Source of the DNA: Chitinophagales bacterium
GTDB lineage: Bacteria > Bacteroidota > Bacteroidia > Chitinophagales > CAIODY01
DNA: 44,157 nt
NCBI GenBank assembly: GCA_947449695.1
Contig: CANFST010000021.1
Location: 1-44,157, forward strand
Reading direction: 5' to 3'
The notes beneath the pieces are model-generated. The model saw nothing but the letters and a program-made list of their open reading frames with translations. It had not been told where the DNA came from and searched no databases. Positions 593-35,391 of the stretch are shown in pieces; position 1 is the stretch's first letter; each line of letters opens with the position of its first letter. The translations under genes and the position numbers were made by a program.

Positions 593-2812
593 ATGCCTGA
601 TATTGAAGAGTTAGAAGATTTAACAAGTGAAATATTAACAGAAAAAAAAGCGGAATCAAATCCGCTATTTTTTACGCAAAAATTATTAGAAACGCTGAAT
701 TTAGATGATGCCAAAGCTAAGAGTGAGGCTGTGCAAAAAGTAATTCGTCAGGTGGCAATGGTTCGCAACCCGATTGAAAGGGAAGGATATATTGATCCAA
801 TTGTGAAATTATTGAAAGTGGCAAAAGGCACTTTTAAAAAATTGCTGAAAGATGAAATGACTATTGATGTGATGGGGCATGAGGAAGCCGATGAAGTACA
901 GGCTTTAAAAGAAGAAATGAAAGCCAAGGGAATTACTGATGATGAGGCTTTTGATAATCTGTTAAACTTTGGTGTGTACGCTTTCAAAGGTGTGTATTGG
1001 AGCAAGGGCGATAAACGGGGTGATATTGCTATTACCAATTTTGTGATGGAAATATTATTTCATGTAAATACTGGTAACGATGTGGCTTATAGAATTGTGA
1101 AGCTGCATAATAAATATGGGTTTGAAACAGTCATAAATATCAATACGGATGATATGACAAGTGTTGGTACATTTCGCAAAATATTGGCAAGGCAAAGCGG
1201 TGGTTTCACTTTTAAAGGAAATGATAATGATTTGATTCGATTAAGCGAATGGCTACAAAAAACTGAAAAGCCTACTCGGTTTGTGGGCATTTTGGGCTAC
1301 CAAAGCAAGTATGAGTTTTACGCATTTGCCAATGGTGTGGTGGATTGCTCGAAATTGGATACGGATAAATATTGGCATGCTGTGGATGATTATGGCATTG
1401 TGAAAGTGAATGATGCCGATTATTTTATCCCAGCCATGAGTAAGGTGTATGCTGATAAAGAAGATTTATTTACCAACGATAAAAAATTTATTTACCTAAA
1501 AAAACTGATTGAATTTAAAGAGTGGGCAGCGCAATATCAATTAGTATATGGCGATAAGGCAATGGCTTCTATTTTATTTGCTGTGGCTTGTATCAACCGC
1601 GATGTAATATTTAAGAAGCTGAAACGCATGGTGATGTTTTTTTACTATGGGCAACGTGGAAGTGGTAAGGGTACGATGATTCACAGCTTGATGTATTTAT
1701 GGGGTACGCCACAGGATCAGTTAATGTTGGGCGGTGGTAGCACCATTAAAGCTACGATGCGAAAATTTGCACAGTTTAGAAATGCCATGATTTGGTTGGA
1801 TGAATACAAAAACAATATTGGGCAAAAGCCGATTGAATCGTTGAAAAATTTGTATGATGGAATTGGGTATGAAAGAGCCAACACGGACAATAGTTTAGGT
1901 ACAAATACTACTGCTGTGAATAGCGGTGCGGCGGTAAGTGGGCAGGAAATGCCAACGATTGAACCTGCACTTTTTCAACGATTTATTTTATTGATGTTTG
2001 AGCCGGGAAAGTTTGATGACGCCAAAAGAAATAATTTTAAGAAGCTTCGTGATATGGAAGAAGGTGGTTTGAGCTGCATTACGGTGGAGCTATTGAAGCA
2101 CCGAAAATATTTTGAGCAAAACTATCCGGAACAATATGATGCAGTTGAAAAAGAAGTGATCAAGCAAACCAACAACCCCAACATTGATGATAGAATGATG
2201 GTGAACGTGGCTATGATATTGGCTTGCTACAAAACTTTGGAGGCAAAAATTACATTTCCGTTTACTTATGAGGATGTAAAAAATTGGATGATTGAAAATA
2301 TGAAGCAGCAGCATTTGATATTGGCTGGGAGCGATGATGTACGCAAATGGTGGGAAATGGTTGAATTTTTATTTAACAGTAAAAACTCGAACACAAGAAT
2401 TGTGGAGGGTGTTGATTTTGAATTGAAAGAGGGAAAATTATTTATCAGGGTGCAAAATGTGCATCCGCTATACATGAATGAAATGCGCCAACGCAATGAT
2501 ACTAATGCTTTGACGAAGCCAACCTTGGAAAATTATTTGGCTTTGGACAAGAATATTTATTTGGATAAAGTGAAGCACCAATTTTCTGATGGTAGTTATA
2601 CTTGGTGCATGGTGTTTAAATATAAGCCATTGGGTATTGATTTGATTAAAGTATTCCAAAAGAAACATCAAGATGGAACAGCGGCTGAATCAATTGAAGA
2701 ATTTGAAGCAAGACGAAGGGAAAAAATGAAAGAAATGGGTGTGGATGAACCCGATTTATTTAACCCAAAAAATGAAAGTGGGCAGGTAGAAGATAAAGAT
2801 TTGCCGTTTTGA
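593..2812 (+). CDS. Phage replication helicase/primase-type ATPase
   Basis: A 739-residue protein with a P-loop ATPase core like the helicase half of phage and plasmid primases (D5/SF3-like). The Walker A motif GQRGSGKGT lies at about residues 353-361, and a Walker B-like IWLDE at about 400-404. These are followed by a basic segment ending in ALFQRF, which may carry the arginine finger. The N-terminal 300 residues are divergent; I see no clear primase catalytic motif, so priming activity is unproven. It probably unwinds phage DNA at the origin. It is the only obvious replication enzyme in the window, and no DNA polymerase was found, so the phage likely relies on the host replisome. The TGTCCA repeats just downstream are a candidate origin. 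Confidence 0.85.
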   Translation: MPDIEELEDLTSEILTEKKAESNPLFFTQKLLETLNLDDAKAKSEAVQKVIRQVAMVRNPIEREGYIDPIVKLLKVAKGTFKKLLKDEMTIDVMGHEEADEVQALKEEMKAKGITDDEAFDNLLNFGVYAFKGVYWSKGDKRGDIAITNFVMEILFHVNTGNDVAYRIVKLHNKYGFETVININTDDMTSVGTFRKILARQSGGFTFKGNDNDLIRLSEWLQKTEKPTRFVGILGYQSKYEFYAFANGVVDCSKLDTDKYWHAVDDYGIVKVNDADYFIPAMSKVYADKEDLFTNDKKFIYLKKLIEFKEWAAQYQLVYGDKAMASILFAVACINRDVIFKKLKRMVMFFYYGQRGSGKGTMIHSLMYLWGTPQDQLMLGGGSTIKATMRKFAQFRNAMIWLDEYKNNIGQKPIESLKNLYDGIGYERANTDNSLGTNTTAVNSGAAVSGQEMPTIEPALFQRFILLMFEPGKFDDAKRNNFKKLRDMEEGGLSCITVELLKHRKYFEQNYPEQYDAVEKEVIKQTNNPNIDDRMMVNVAMILACYKTLEAKITFPFTYEDVKNWMIENMKQQHLILAGSDDVRKWWEMVEFLFNSKNSNTRIVEGVDFELKEGKLFIRVQNVHPLYMNEMRQRNDTNALTKPTLENYLALDKNIYLDKVKHQFSDGSYTWCMVFKYKPLGIDLIKVFQKKHQDGTAAESIEEFEARRREKMKEMGVDEPDLFNPKNESGQVEDKDLPF

Positions 2813-13004: not shown

Positions 13005-13530
13005 ACCAACTAAGGCACAGCAATTTGCTGAATTGATTTTAGCATTGCTTTTTTTATTGATTGTTTTCATGATTGCATCGTGCAATCCTGTAAAGTATGT
13101 ACTGAATAATAATGCAGAATTTGAAAAGATTTGTGCTGAATGCAATGTGCAGCATCCTTGCTACACTAAAACAGAAATTAAATTTAAAAAAGGGGATACG
13201 ATCACTAATACTATCACCCGAGTTGATACGATTACTAAGTATGATTCAGTTGAAAAAGTTTGGACAAAAACTGTCCAAAAATTTGTTACCAAAGACAGAA
13301 TTATTCGAGATACAGTTGAGATTTCACAACCTGATTTAAGGTTGATTAATCAACTGAATATTGCATTGAATAATGCTGAAAAGAAAGCTATTGAAGATGA
13401 AAAAAAATTGCAAACTGCTGAGTATCGTGGGGATAAATTAAGAGATTATTTAGTTGGTGAAAATGTGATTATTGGATTGCTCATCATCATTTATTTTTTA
13501 TTAAAATCAAAATTCAAACTGCCTGTGTAG
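12994..13530 (+). CDS. Unimolecular spanin-like lipoprotein
   Basis: A 178-residue protein. The N-terminus has a hydrophobic signal ending in the lipobox IASC with Cys30 as the likely lipidated residue. The periplasmic part (about 31-150) is beta-rich, then helical. The C-terminus has a membrane segment, IIGLLIIIYFLL, followed by a basic tail. An outer-membrane lipid anchor at one end and an inner-membrane helix at the other is the architecture of one-piece spanins such as T1 gp11, which fuse the two membranes at the end of lysis. Neighbours are holin-like and endolysin-like genes. Its TAG stop lies within the tRNA-like sequence. Confidence 0.7.
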   Translation: MNYKPTKAQQFAELILALLFLLIVFMIASCNPVKYVLNNNAEFEKICAECNVQHPCYTKTEIKFKKGDTITNTITRVDTITKYDSVEKVWTKTVQKFVTKDRIIRDTVEISQPDLRLINQLNIALNNAEKKAIEDEKKLQTAEYRGDKLRDYLVGENVIIGLLIIIYFLLKSKFKLPV

Positions 13531-13604
13531 CTCAGTTGGTTAGAGCATGTGATAAGCCCCGTAAGGTTCTATTTTGGTCGGTGGTTCGAGTCCATCAACA
13601 GGCG
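13521..13604 (+). tRNA. tRNA-like sequence with non-canonical anticodon arm
   Basis: Good tRNA features: acceptor GCCTGTG (13521-13527) pairs with AACAGGC (13597-13603) except the innermost pair; U8-A9; D-arm GCTC-AGTTGGTTA-GAGC (13530-13546); T-arm GGTGG-TTCGAGT-CCATC (13580-13596). The 32 bases between the D and T arms (13548-13579) do not form a five-pair stem with a seven-base loop. They can form GATA/AGCC with GGTT/TATT, with a bulge and a six-base loop. It may be a degraded tRNA, or one with an inserted or altered anticodon arm. The 5' end overlaps the end of the spanin-like gene. No amino acid is assigned. Confidence 0.55.
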
Positions 13605-13619
13605 CATAAATATTTTACC

Positions 13620-18536: not shown

Positions 18537-18569
18537 TTTGGAAAACAGGCAAACATTGGTATATATTTG
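18537..18569 (+). promoter_or_regulatory. Promoter of pseudoknot RNA copy 1
   Basis: TTTG (18537-18540), 21 bases, TATATTTG (18562-18569). The predicted RNA start, three to five bases downstream, coincides with the first base of helix A. The second copy at 33349 has the same TATATTTG box and the same relation to helix A. Confidence 0.7.
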
Positions 18570-18572
18570 CAA

Positions 18573-18692
18573 TGTCGAAACCAAATTAAAATGTTTAATC
18601 AACAATTTTTACTTCAAACTTTTTGCCCCAACGAATCCGTAAAATCGGGTTACTATTCAATTCATTTTGATTTGGTTCGACACGTTGGGGTA
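18573..18692 (+). ncRNA. Leader RNA with A-B-A'-B' pseudoknot, copy 1
   Basis: Helix P1: 18573-18593 pairs with 18663-18682, 20 pairs with one bulged A and one G-U. Helix P2: CCCCAACG (18626-18633) pairs with CGTTGGGG (18683-18690), plus two weaker pairs. Because one strand of P2 lies inside P1 and the other outside, the two form a pseudoknot, with A' and B' directly adjacent. Between B and A' is a hairpin, AATCCG (18634-18639) with CGGGTT (18646-18651). A' (18671-18682) is also perfectly complementary over 12 bases to 18719-18730, which spans the start codon region of the next gene. The second copy at 33383 keeps the fold with different P1 and P2 sequences. I do not recognise the family. Confidence 0.7.
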
Positions 18693-18717
18693 TTTTTTAA
18701 CAAACAAAATTCTTTTT

Positions 18718-19299
18718 ATGTCGAACCAAAAAGCAAACCAAAACGAAGCCACATTACCTGTTGCATTGAGTGATGAACTCAAAAAATTTATCAAAAAACA
18801 TTTTGAAGAAGGTTCTCCCCTAAAATTTAAAGAAGACTGGAGGCAATTTATCCGCTTTGCTGTATGCAATGAAAAACTGGATTTAGATAAAGAACAATGC
18901 CGAATAGGGTATTTATTTTTTGAAGATCAGATTGATGATTTGATAAATATTTGTCAGCTATTGATAAATCATTTTGAGCTTGATTATTTTACAAATTCAA
19001 AAGCGAAAAATAAATATTTAATATTCGATGAACAGCATATTGATGTTTTGGAAAAAATAAGCGAAGAAATATCAAAATCTACTTTTGAAGACAGATTTAA
19101 CCTGATGACACAAATGCTACAATTGAGATTGACCTTTAAATGGCATAAAGATTGGTCTACGGATGTTTACGACATTGAAAAACTTTTAGATTTGTATAAT
19201 GATACTGTAAGTATTTTCAAATGCTTTTTTGATGGTGGATTTATGGGGTATTCAGATCAAAGTTTTCATACATTTTATTCAAAAATTAAAATTGACTAA
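18718..19299 (+). CDS. Hypothetical cargo protein behind pseudoknot leader
   Basis: A 193-residue soluble protein, rich in Lys, Asp and Phe, with an N-terminal tail of Asn and Gln. It is not recognised. The frame is open upstream to 18667, but I chose ATG 18718: it follows the leader RNA and repeats the sequence at the RNA 5' end (ATGTCGAACCAAA compared with ATGTCGAAACCAAA at 18572). Its translation start can pair with the A' strand of the leader, so expression may be switched by RNA folding. It overlaps no other gene and is three bases before the next one. Its function may relate to host or phage defence as cargo, but nothing shows it. Confidence 0.65.
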   Translation: MSNQKANQNEATLPVALSDELKKFIKKHFEEGSPLKFKEDWRQFIRFAVCNEKLDLDKEQCRIGYLFFEDQIDDLINICQLLINHFELDYFTNSKAKNKYLIFDEQHIDVLEKISEEISKSTFEDRFNLMTQMLQLRLTFKWHKDWSTDVYDIEKLLDLYNDTVSIFKCFFDGGFMGYSDQSFHTFYSKIKID

Positions 19300-19655: not shown

Positions 19656-20078
19656 ATGGATTATACAAAAACAAATACTGTGGTGCTTGAATGGTTGGAA
19701 TCAACCGTGATGCTTTTACGGGCTGAAGCTATGGCACTGGGTATTTTTAAAACAGGTGCATTTGCTAATAGCCTGACATATAAATTTAAAATAGTGAGTT
19801 CAGGCGGTAAAGCTAGTTGGCATAAAGCAGGTGATTCACCTGATATGAATAGTGGGTTGATAACTGTAGTAGGGTTTAGCTTTAGAAGACATGGTATTTA
19901 TGTGCATTATGGCTTGGCAGGGAAAGGTGGACAGGTGAAAACAACAGAAAAGCATTGGTACACCAATGTGATGAAAGTACAATTAGAAGTATTACAACAA
20001 TTGCATGCAAGCAAACTGTCAGAAGATATTTCAGATAGATTATTTAACCAATTAACAGTAGGATTAATTTATGAGTGA
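19656..20078 (+). CDS. Tail completion protein (HK97 gp10-like position)
   Basis: A 140-residue soluble protein. The motif pattern GAFANSL...FSFRRHGIYVHYG resembles phage tail components of the HK97 gp10 type, which have a similar Arg-rich, Gly-rich loop. It overlaps the tape measure gene by eight bases, the normal neighbour. Probably part of the tail terminator ring. Confidence 0.6.
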   Translation: MDYTKTNTVVLEWLESTVMLLRAEAMALGIFKTGAFANSLTYKFKIVSSGGKASWHKAGDSPDMNSGLITVVGFSFRRHGIYVHYGLAGKGGQVKTTEKHWYTNVMKVQLEVLQQLHASKLSEDISDRLFNQLTVGLIYE

Positions 20079-33348: not shown

Positions 33349-33379
33349 TTTGCTTTTATATTTCGGGCAATTATATTTG
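33349..33379 (+). promoter_or_regulatory. Promoter of pseudoknot RNA copy 2
   Basis: TTTG (33349-33352), 19 bases, TATATTTG (33372-33379), with the predicted RNA start at the beginning of helix A. Its start overlaps the end of the preceding gene's stop region by nothing; the gap is short. Confidence 0.7.
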
Positions 33380-33382
33380 CAA

Positions 33383-33518
33383 TGTTTCGCAAACAACTGT
33401 AATTATAATGATTTACCAACTTCAAAATCTATTTTCAAAATCCGCCGTGCAATCCGTATCCAATCGGGTTAACCTTGTAACTTCATTGTTACAGTTGTTT
33501 GCGACCACGGCGGATTTT
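33383..33518 (+). ncRNA. Leader RNA with A-B-A'-B' pseudoknot, copy 2
   Basis: P1: TCGCAAACAACTGTAA (33387-33402) pairs perfectly with 33489-33504, and AATG (33407-33410) adds four pairs with CATT (33484-33487). P2: AAAATCCGCCGTG (33437-33449) pairs perfectly, 13 of 13, with CACGGCGGATTTT (33506-33518). One base separates A' and B'. P3: AATCCG (33451-33456) pairs with CGGGTT (33465-33470), same sequence as copy 1. ACTTCAAA before helix B (33419-33426) is also shared with copy 1 (18611-18618). A' is complementary over 11 bases to the start region 33544-33554. P2 followed by T-rich sequence could also act as an intrinsic terminator. Confidence 0.7.
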
Positions 33519-33540
33519 ATAATTTATATCTTACCTAAAA

Positions 33541-33816
33541 ATGTCGCAAACAACAGAAACAACCAAGCCAAGCAACCAAGACTTAAATACAGTTGCTGAT
33601 TTCATCAAGTGGTTTATCCAGCCACGATATTCTTGCATTCAAAATGAAGAATTTAAAGAAAAGCATATCGTTGATACTTTGAGTATTTATACTGAAATGC
33701 AAGATATTTTGCAAAATGAAATGATTACAATGGCTGATTTAACTACCTACTTAATTCAACATGATTTTGAATTAAGCGAAACTTCATTATGGATATGCTG
33801 GGCGAAAACTAAATAA
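33541..33816 (+). CDS. Hypothetical cargo protein behind pseudoknot leader (91 aa)
   Basis: A small soluble protein of 91 residues. The N-terminal 15 residues are Thr, Gln, Lys-rich and look flexible. The rest is mostly helical with three tryptophans. It shows no obvious similarity to the gene behind copy 1 except a polar start beginning Met-Ser. The start region repeats the 5' end of the leader (TCGCAAACAAC at 33387 and 33544). It ends one base before the stop of the convergent integrase gene. It is likely expressed in the lysogen; role unknown. Confidence 0.65.
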   Translation: MSQTTETTKPSNQDLNTVADFIKWFIQPRYSCIQNEEFKEKHIVDTLSIYTEMQDILQNEMITMADLTTYLIQHDFELSETSLWICWAKTK

Positions 33817-34992
33817 TCAAATAGAGTTCAATCTATCCATCACTTTTATTGCTTCAGTTTTATCTTCGAGCAACACATGAGCATATTTCATAGTGGTTTT
33901 AATATCGGCATGTGTTGCAAGTTCTTTTGTAATTAATGGAGAGGTATTCAGCTTTAATAGTGTGGTAATAAATGTATGACGTGATGAATGGAATTTTAAT
34001 TCTTTCCCCAACTTACACTTTACACACATTTGTTTGATATGCTTTCGAATAGTTGGCTGTGCTACATAAGGGAAGTTGAACTCCTTTAATTTTTGATATA
34101 GAAATACTGCACCTTCACTTAATGGAATTGAAAATTCTTTTTCCTTACCCAATTGTTGTTTTTTAGGCTTAAAATTCAGAACATTATTTTGCATATTGAA
34201 TGTACCAATCCTAGTAACATCACTTATTCTTAAGCCAGTATGGCAACTAAACAAATAATAATTCAGTGCTACTAAGTAGGAATTATGATAATTATAATTT
34301 TCTAAAGATTCCATGAAGTGATCAATAACCAACTGAAGCTCCCTGATAGATAAAAATTCAATTTTTCTTTCAACCCAATTTGTTCCCAAATCTTCAAACG
34401 GATTAGTATTCAGCTTTACTCCAGTTTGTTTTTGAATTAATTTCCAGTAGGTCCTCACATTTTTAACAATGCTATGGATATAATTTTCAGAATACTTTTT
34501 GCGATATAATTTTTCAATTAACTGTATCATCATTGGCTGCGTAATATCAGCAACTTCAAGTTTCTTGAAATACTTACGAAGTATTTTAGCTGTGTTTAAA
34601 TGTACAGTTCGAGAGCTAGGCTTTAGTTTTATTCTAGTTTTTGCCTGTTGCTCCATATAATCAATAAAATCACCCGAAATATTTTGAATTTCAATTCTCT
34701 TATTAAATAATGAAACTGATAGTTTTATTTTCTCTAAATTAGCATCAGAAGCAATTTTATCAACTAATGATTTGAAATTGTTCAGCGTAGAATTTATTTC
34801 ATGCTGTGATTGACTGGTTGATTTTACTAGTTTTATTTTTTCATCCCAATCTTTTTCATCAATAAAAAAACCTGAATGCTTTTTTATTCTTTCTCCATTA
34901 ATAGAAAGATTAAAATAAATTGGCTGTAAGCCAGTAGTACGGCTTTTGGAATCAGTACGCAAATAAATTTTACAACGAATTCGATTAAACAT
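33817..34992 (-). CDS. int: Phage integrase, tyrosine recombinase
   Basis: A 391-residue recombinase of the Bacteroidota type: an N-terminal arm-binding domain (about 1-110), a SAM-like core-binding domain (about 105-205) and a C-terminal catalytic domain. Catalytic residues seen in order are Arg in TGLRISD (255), His and Arg in HSSRH (335, 338), His in ATHAD (361) and nucleophile Tyr in MKYAHV (370). It inserts the phage at attB. I use ATG 34992; the longer frame to 35058 would run through the repeat TTGGGACA. It ends at the stop of the convergent cargo gene. Confidence 0.9.
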   Translation of the reverse strand: MFNRIRCKIYLRTDSKSRTTGLQPIYFNLSINGERIKKHSGFFIDEKDWDEKIKLVKSTSQSQHEINSTLNNFKSLVDKIASDANLEKIKLSVSLFNKRIEIQNISGDFIDYMEQQAKTRIKLKPSSRTVHLNTAKILRKYFKKLEVADITQPMMIQLIEKLYRKKYSENYIHSIVKNVRTYWKLIQKQTGVKLNTNPFEDLGTNWVERKIEFLSIRELQLVIDHFMESLENYNYHNSYLVALNYYLFSCHTGLRISDVTRIGTFNMQNNVLNFKPKKQQLGKEKEFSIPLSEGAVFLYQKLKEFNFPYVAQPTIRKHIKQMCVKCKLGKELKFHSSRHTFITTLLKLNTSPLITKELATHADIKTTMKYAHVLLEDKTEAIKVMDRLNSI

Positions 34993-35391
34993 ATCGACCT
35001 CCTTGCGTATTACACTGTTGGGACAAACTTCGGGACGATTTCCTAGAATGAGCATCATGGGACAGTAGTTGGGACTGTTTTTTTGTTAAGAAATAAATTC
35101 TTAACCATGACTGAAAGCTGTGGTGGGCTTGATTTAGCGTAATAAAAGTACAAGTAGGTAAATCTTGTACTTTTATTATTGGTTGTCCGACTAGATTTTT
35201 GATTAATTTTTCAAACGCTGACTGCATATAGGCTTTAGATTTTTATTTTATTTTTTGGGACAGTTTTGGGACAAAATGCAACAATTTCCGTATTGCGGAA
35301 ATTTGTCTATTAAATACAACAGGTTATTTTGCATTGTGATAATTTATAAATAATTGATTTGTATTGTTTTCTTTCTTTGGTTTGCGGTATG
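34993..35391. other. Integrase upstream region with repeats, candidate attP
   Basis: TTGGGACA or close variants occur at 35018-35025, about 35031 (CGGGACG), about 35058, about 35069, 35255-35262 and 35266-35273, grouped in pairs as integrase arm sites often are. There are also three perfect inverted repeats: GTTAAGAA/TTCTTAAC (35085-35105), a 15-bp stem at 35140-35154 with 35164-35178, which resembles a bidirectional terminator, and AATTTCCG/CGGAAATT (about 35284-35305). I found no clear core site or tRNA fragment. No gene is supported. Confidence 0.55.

Follow-up and report, generated by a model that had tools for sequence, protein, structure and literature searches.

Can a leader RNA control the gene behind it by a single strand that pairs either with the 5' end of the transcript or with the start codon? 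This question is raised by two places in a stretch of 44,157 nucleotides from a Chitinophagales bacterium, referred to as the window in the following. A sequence-only reading had placed such a switch in the interval 18663-18731, which includes the strand in question, A', and the start; strands A, B and B' and the hairpins H1 and H2, and with them most of the structure, were left out.

Layout of the two leaders

Both leaders are composed of the same elements in the same order: a promoter-like box TATATTTG, strand A, strand B, hairpins H1 and H2, strands A' and B', and the ATG. By the consensus, we take TATATTTG to be the -7-like box of a Bacteroidota-type promoter. It was assigned by motif at 18562-18569 (copy 1) and 33372-33379 (copy 2), and all elements of both leaders are on the forward strand.

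The structure of copy 1 as a whole spans 18573-18692. Strand A (18573-18585) is located at the expected RNA 5' end, followed by strand B (18624-18633), H1 with the sequence AAUCCG[UAAAAU]CGGGUU (18634-18651), H2 with UCAA[UUCAUU]UUGA (18657-18670), strand A' (18671-18682) as the partner of A or S, and strand B' (18683-18692). The ATG at 18718 opens an ORF of 193 aa without a clear family (18718-19299), and S, the complement of A' in the start-codon region, covers 18719-18730. Copy 2 extends over 33387-33518, with A at 33387-33402, B at 33437-33449, H1, AAUCCG[UAUCCAAU]CGGGUU, at 33451-33470, H2, UGUAAC[UUCAUU]GUUACA, at 33476-33493, A' at 33489-33504, the outer end of which is overlapped by H2, and B' at 33506-33518. 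Its ATG is found at 33541 and S at 33543-33554, and the ORF encodes 91 aa (33541-33816), again with no clear family. Strands B and B' were assigned by the match of a covariance model (R2, see below) together with their pairing, H1 by covariation in relatives, and H2 from the sequence. The main stretch common to both copies is H1, AAUCCG[loop]CGGGUU, and the H2 loop is the same; A and B differ in sequence, with the pairing retained.

A family of pseudoknotted leaders

Both leaders are members of an RNA family characterized by four helices, A/A', B/B', H1 and H2. In the window copies as well as in 25 relatives from phage and Bacteroides genomes, A/A' crosses B/B' and thus gives a pseudoknot. The pairing of A with A' had been recognized before, whereas B/B', the two hairpins, the pseudoknot and the wider family had escaped notice.

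Covariation in the relatives shows the predicted helices. In an alignment covering the contiguous length of the 25 relatives, standard pairs account for 97.4% of 833 cells, and 25 of 35 pairs carry two-sided changes (190 cells), which none of 500 shuffles came near; sliding the partner by 1-3 columns lets the pairing fall to 28-46%. Helix A is the weakest of the four (94.9% paired, two-sided changes in two of six pairs), and the loci L190 and L169 are misaligned there. Few letters are conserved, namely AA..UU at the foot of H1, the H1 loop (mostly U-A-R..A-A-Y) and the G-C pairs of H2; most relatives share GCC in strand A. A second leader of L219 (233-312, reverse strand) has, as a compensated change, G-C instead of A-U at the first pair of H1, which is otherwise fixed.

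R2 was constructed from 12 relatives and holds no window sequence. It matches the window twice, at 18615-18696 and 33436-33519, i.e., at the leaders, with 26.8 and 24.7 bits (E 3e-4 and 1e-3). Since the antisense strands of true copies also reach 21-30 bits under R2, these scores alone are insufficient, and it is the predicted architecture and the position of the putative promoter that make the case for the window copies. A further model, R3, includes the window copies and scores them with 48.1 and 39.8 by construction.

Occurrence in genomes and viral contigs

In the genome of the window, the H1 pattern is found at the two leader places only, and none of five relatives of this genome from the same family has it. 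Among the at least 120 stretches listed for this pattern in viral contigs, two more loci, L118 and L116, carry the full pseudoknot. Patterns and covariance models led to the further viral contigs L154, L193, L201, L203, L204, L209 and L217-L222. An uncultured Bacteroides genome has four copies, of which three follow one another at intervals of about 640-690 nt; in the family of this genome, 18 places were found in 12 of 399 genomes. BLASTN with Bacteroides-type leaders gave no phage match for two queries and no plasmid match; with a third query, one GenBank phage record was found to carry the RNA. Altogether 27 copies including the two of the window were tabulated, some being one locus met twice (e.g., L185 and L209).

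Closer to the window genome, little was found. R2 matched its own genome (copy 2 only) and G827 in 198 genomes of the order; the latter (L173) was dropped as a window-type leader upon inspection by eye, having no promoter, no A and no normal H1. R3 matched the own genome alone in 188 genomes, and in 159 genomes the own genome plus one weak match, G122/L225, which was rejected for want of AA at the foot of H1. R1, which misses the window copies too, had no match in 395 genomes of the class. A pattern search in 395 genomes of the phylum returned the own copy 2 and one chance match; the copy 1 loop is one base too short for this pattern.

Putative promoter, spacing and downstream genes

A TTTG a few nt upstream of A was detected by script in 26 of the 27 tabulated copies, and in the remaining one, copy 2, by reading (TATATTTG). 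Strand A lies at the expected 5' end in all of them. The distance from the end of B' to the ATG is 8-16 nt in 21 of the 25 relatives and 20, 24, 45 and 114 nt in the other four, the last being L171, where a gene is possibly absent. With 27 nt (copy 1) and 22 nt (copy 2), the window leaders are outside the common range.

The genes downstream are mutually unrelated and often defence-like. Above the Pfam cut-off, HIRAN domains are encoded behind the leaders of L168, L203 and L220, putAbiC behind L226 and, just above it, MACPF behind L190. Trypco2 was found just below the cut-off in L151 and L182, and L166, L170, L186 and L220 look like these two by eye. Others are, as judged by eye, small winged-helix-like proteins with a C-terminal membrane segment, and proline-rich mini-ORFs also occur behind leaders. 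Among the proteins of eight relatives, PADLOC matches only the HIRAN protein of L168. For the window proteins, Pfam (no match above threshold), PHROGs, PADLOC and NCBIfam gave nothing convincing, the 193-aa protein reaching only E 0.02 in PADLOC; protein relatives of both ORFs were absent from viral contigs and phages, and single-sequence structure models have a mean pLDDT of 39.8 and 56.4.

As side observations, convergent genes for small membrane proteins are located behind proline-rich mini-ORFs in L116 (6158-6748, forward strand), L118 (1766-2317, reverse strand) and L151 (1560-2127, reverse strand); the one in L151 matches PycTM weakly (E 0.032, below the cut-off). L151 also shows another promoter-like TTATATTTGCAGTG at about 2185-2285 (forward strand), behind which a possibly structured stretch and a T run are located.

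A tape measure gene begins at 20071 in the window, and an integrase gene is located at 33817-35058. The contigs of L209, L203, L154 and L116 likewise encode a tape measure protein, that of L203 an integrase as well. From these neighbours, the leader genes look like extra genes set into late regions of prophages. Phage moron cassettes have their own promoter and are located among late genes; for the leaders, a tape measure gene on the contig is found in the window and these four loci, and the promoters are predicted from the motif.

The leader can be retained while the gene behind it is exchanged. L185, L186, L193, L203 and L209 have a near-identical leader from A to about the ATG with three kinds of genes behind it, and the upstream DNA differs among them, save for L185 and L209, which represent one locus. 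Similarly, L217-L222 share a near-identical leader in front of two kinds of genes, Trypco2-like and proline-rich. Near-identical leaders with differing neighbours indicate that the leader is the unit that is kept while its neighbours change.

The position of A and the variety of genes would also suit a protective function, in which a 5' end tied into a pseudoknot blocks decay from this end, whatever the gene. This leaves both the conserved H1 loop and the near-constant distance to the ATG unexplained, and we consider it quite unlikely. Transcription attenuation is a further candidate, with B:B' and a U-run as conditional terminator. A TTTTT is present at most 10 nt after B' in 10 of the 27 copies, copy 1 among them; for an intrinsic terminator attenuator, the U-run would be expected after the stem in all members, but it is missing from 17 copies including copy 2, and where relatives have the run, the adjacent stem foot is A+U-rich in most cases. 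Such a terminator is very unlikely in our view.

Alternative partners of strand A'

For copy 1, A' was claimed to be complementary to 18719-18730, and indeed 12 pairs are formed without a mismatch, including the UG of the ATG. The alternative partner is strand A at the RNA 5' end, with one bulged base. In copy 2, the 11 pairs proposed between 33494-33504 and 33544-33554 are present and extended to 12 by the additional pair 33505:33543; with A, A' forms 16 pairs. In both copies A' complements A and S alike, so that the gene start repeats the 5' end of its leader, and because A:A' and A':S draw on the same A' bases, in two leaders of different sequence, both pairings are mutually exclusive, as had been suggested.

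A 12-nt match was reached by none (copy 1) and one (copy 2) of 1000 shuffles of the start region. The window has 60 ORFs that begin with ATG and encode 80 aa or more, and a leader-start complementarity of 12 nt is seen for these two genes alone; the longest elsewhere is 9 nt, for an antisense ORF. The duplex energies are -17.8 (copy 1) and -19.1 kcal/mol (copy 2) for S:A' compared to -22.7 and -25.6 kcal/mol for A:A', a difference of 4.9 and 6.5 kcal/mol, respectively, in favour of A. Folding in silico of full-length and truncated leaders had been named as a check. In a folding that ignores pseudoknots, upon removal of A, the mean unpaired probability of the start decreases from 0.50 to 0.23 in copy 1, but increases from 0.63 to 0.72 in copy 2; the predicted closing of the start upon loss of A is thus supported by folding for copy 1 only.

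The relatives give a different picture of the two partners. With A' placed by alignment columns, a start-codon partner S is found in none of the 25. The longest match between A' and the start region has 3-5 nt, which is at the level of shuffles (the lowest value is 32 of 1000, for L186, uncorrected). Hence the claim of two partners divides: the A:A' helix covaries in 25 relatives and is strongly supported, whereas A':S is known from two sequences, both of them window copies. It follows that exchange of A' is not the general mode of action of the RNA family, nor the trait for which the family was selected. The putative exchange is a local addition in the window copies, and S arose either twice with different sequences or once and was then kept in step.

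The leader may be a real cis-acting pseudoknot and S a by-product of gene conversion between 5' end and gene start or of a shared ancestral cassette, without being a switch. Besides the lack of S in the relatives, this would fit the fact that both window genes begin with ATGTCG. However, the strands A, A' and S fit each other in either copy although their sequences are not the same in the two, and a single inherited event would need matched later changes; we regard this by-product as possible, but on the unlikely side. That the A/S repeat stems from an insertion with target duplication was rejected, as A' of the relatives has no match to the starts. Finally, a released leader could function as a trans-acting small RNA with other transcripts as targets. 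The presence of several copies in one genome or contig would be compatible with this, but both the fixed position just upstream of the start codon and the missing match between A' and the relatives' own start regions argue against it and render it extremely improbable.

Upstream ORFs

In Bacteroides-type copies, strand B contains an ORF of nine codons, on which a pausing ribosome would open B:B'. Its sequence is mostly M-x-P-F/L-S-x-R/C-N-P/T-stop, with the ATG at the start of strand B and the stop within the H1 loop. It is found in L116, L118, L151 (two copies), L154, L165, L166, L168, L181, L184, L201 and L204, where L184 differs in the middle of the peptide and L181 has UGA as stop instead of UAA or UAG. 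The window holds upstream ORFs of another kind at 18591-18773 and 33408-33599, which overlap the main start out of frame and comprise 42 and 44 codons before it.

A leader peptide from the strand B ORF is possible. The nine-codon ORF is present in 12 of the 25 relatives, with one more copy stopping earlier, and in both window leaders the overlapping upstream ORF exceeds 40 codons, a length that 38 and 34 of 2000 dinucleotide shuffles reach. In the other 12 relatives, though, the ORF is absent or out of frame, and the upstream ORFs of the window resemble neither each other nor the nine-codon peptide. Regulation by ribosome pausing thus appears unlikely to us. A leaderless mini-ORF at the very 5' end, starting from an NTG in A, was dismissed, given ACG in L182 and TAG in L189.

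Relation to known RNA elements

Rfam 15 was applied to the window, where only a tRNA at 13521 reaches the gathering threshold; this tRNA-like gene (13521-13605) lies in the phage region and has an unclear anticodon. For eight relative loci and both leaders, nothing comes near the threshold, RF03085 included. An HDV-like ribozyme was discarded, since A' and B' are directly adjacent and no P4 lies between them.

SAM-II and other H-type pseudoknot riboswitches have a pseudoknot between promoter and start codon. The leaders resemble them in this respect, but differ in having no Rfam match and two extra stacked hairpins. Behind a riboswitch, genes of one pathway would be expected; the tabulated downstream genes do not share a pathway.

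Two systems linked to phage defence are described in excerpts of PMC12373285. The abiF RNA motif (RF03085), or RCd22 in C. difficile, is an element in the 5' leader that sets the expression of AbiF, a phage-borne abortive-infection gene, and here, too, phage-borne genes are preceded by a leader RNA; according to these excerpts, abiF RNA consists of a motif of 36-37 nt occurring twice plus a terminator, whereas here one four-helix pseudoknot precedes each of several unrelated genes. ToxI of type III toxin-antitoxin systems is, as in our case, a pseudoknot RNA adjoining phage-defence genes, but is given there as a tandem repeat of 34-36 nt before one kind of toxin, in contrast to the many kinds of genes observed here; a tandem short repeat of this type, as expected before a ToxN-like toxin, is absent from the two leaders. 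Structured RNA candidates from gut Bacteroidetes, some near phage genes, are outlined in PMC8040213 and PMC2864571, and those of them represented in Rfam do not match the leaders. No title or abstract listed in literature searches names such an RNA, and an unnamed earlier prediction may be among the 3161 supplementary candidates of PMC8040213. We file the element as a new leader RNA family.

Proposed mechanism and biological meaning

The location of the element suggests that it acts in cis and on translation. That it is a leader of this kind and that, in the window copies, exchange of A' between A and S serves as a switch is a reading to which we assign an even chance; for the switch itself, the arguments are about balanced.

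Transcription presumably starts at or beside A. During RNA synthesis, B, H1 and H2 would form before A' emerges and pairs with the 5'-terminal A; B' would then close B, resulting in a pseudoknot that ends shortly upstream of the AUG and may set the translation level of the downstream gene. In the window copies, where the gene start S repeats A, B:B' could persist while A' moves, since A', located between these two strands, is able to reach upstream to A or downstream to S. A:A' would leave the start free (ON), and A':S would close it (OFF). As A is made first and has the better pairing energy, the default state is most likely A:A' with a free start. Removal of A by a bound factor, an RNA or 5' trimming would shut the gene off. 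A binding partner, if any, would be sought at the conserved letters, i.e., the foot and loop of H1, the G-C pairs of H2 and the GCC of A. It counts against this model that H2 of copy 1 has only 4 bp and overlaps the extended A:A' pairing.

In a broader scenario, which we put forward tentatively as one possibility, the leader is a mobile regulatory RNA module, a pseudoknot closed by the 5' end that is passed among unrelated defence or conflict genes of Bacteroidota phages under one signal. In the prophage of the window, it would have become an exchange among three strands, with a gene start that copies the 5' end and a gene that is silenced once this end is lost.

To our knowledge, little is known on how accessory genes of gut Bacteroides prophages are silenced or activated. 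Conservation of one leader in front of changing genes points to a regulator common to all of them, and offers a handle for finding it. If the exchange of A' works, the window copies would represent a minimal switch that can be tested by point changes, and would allow a cell to sense the state of an mRNA 5' end, intact or bound.
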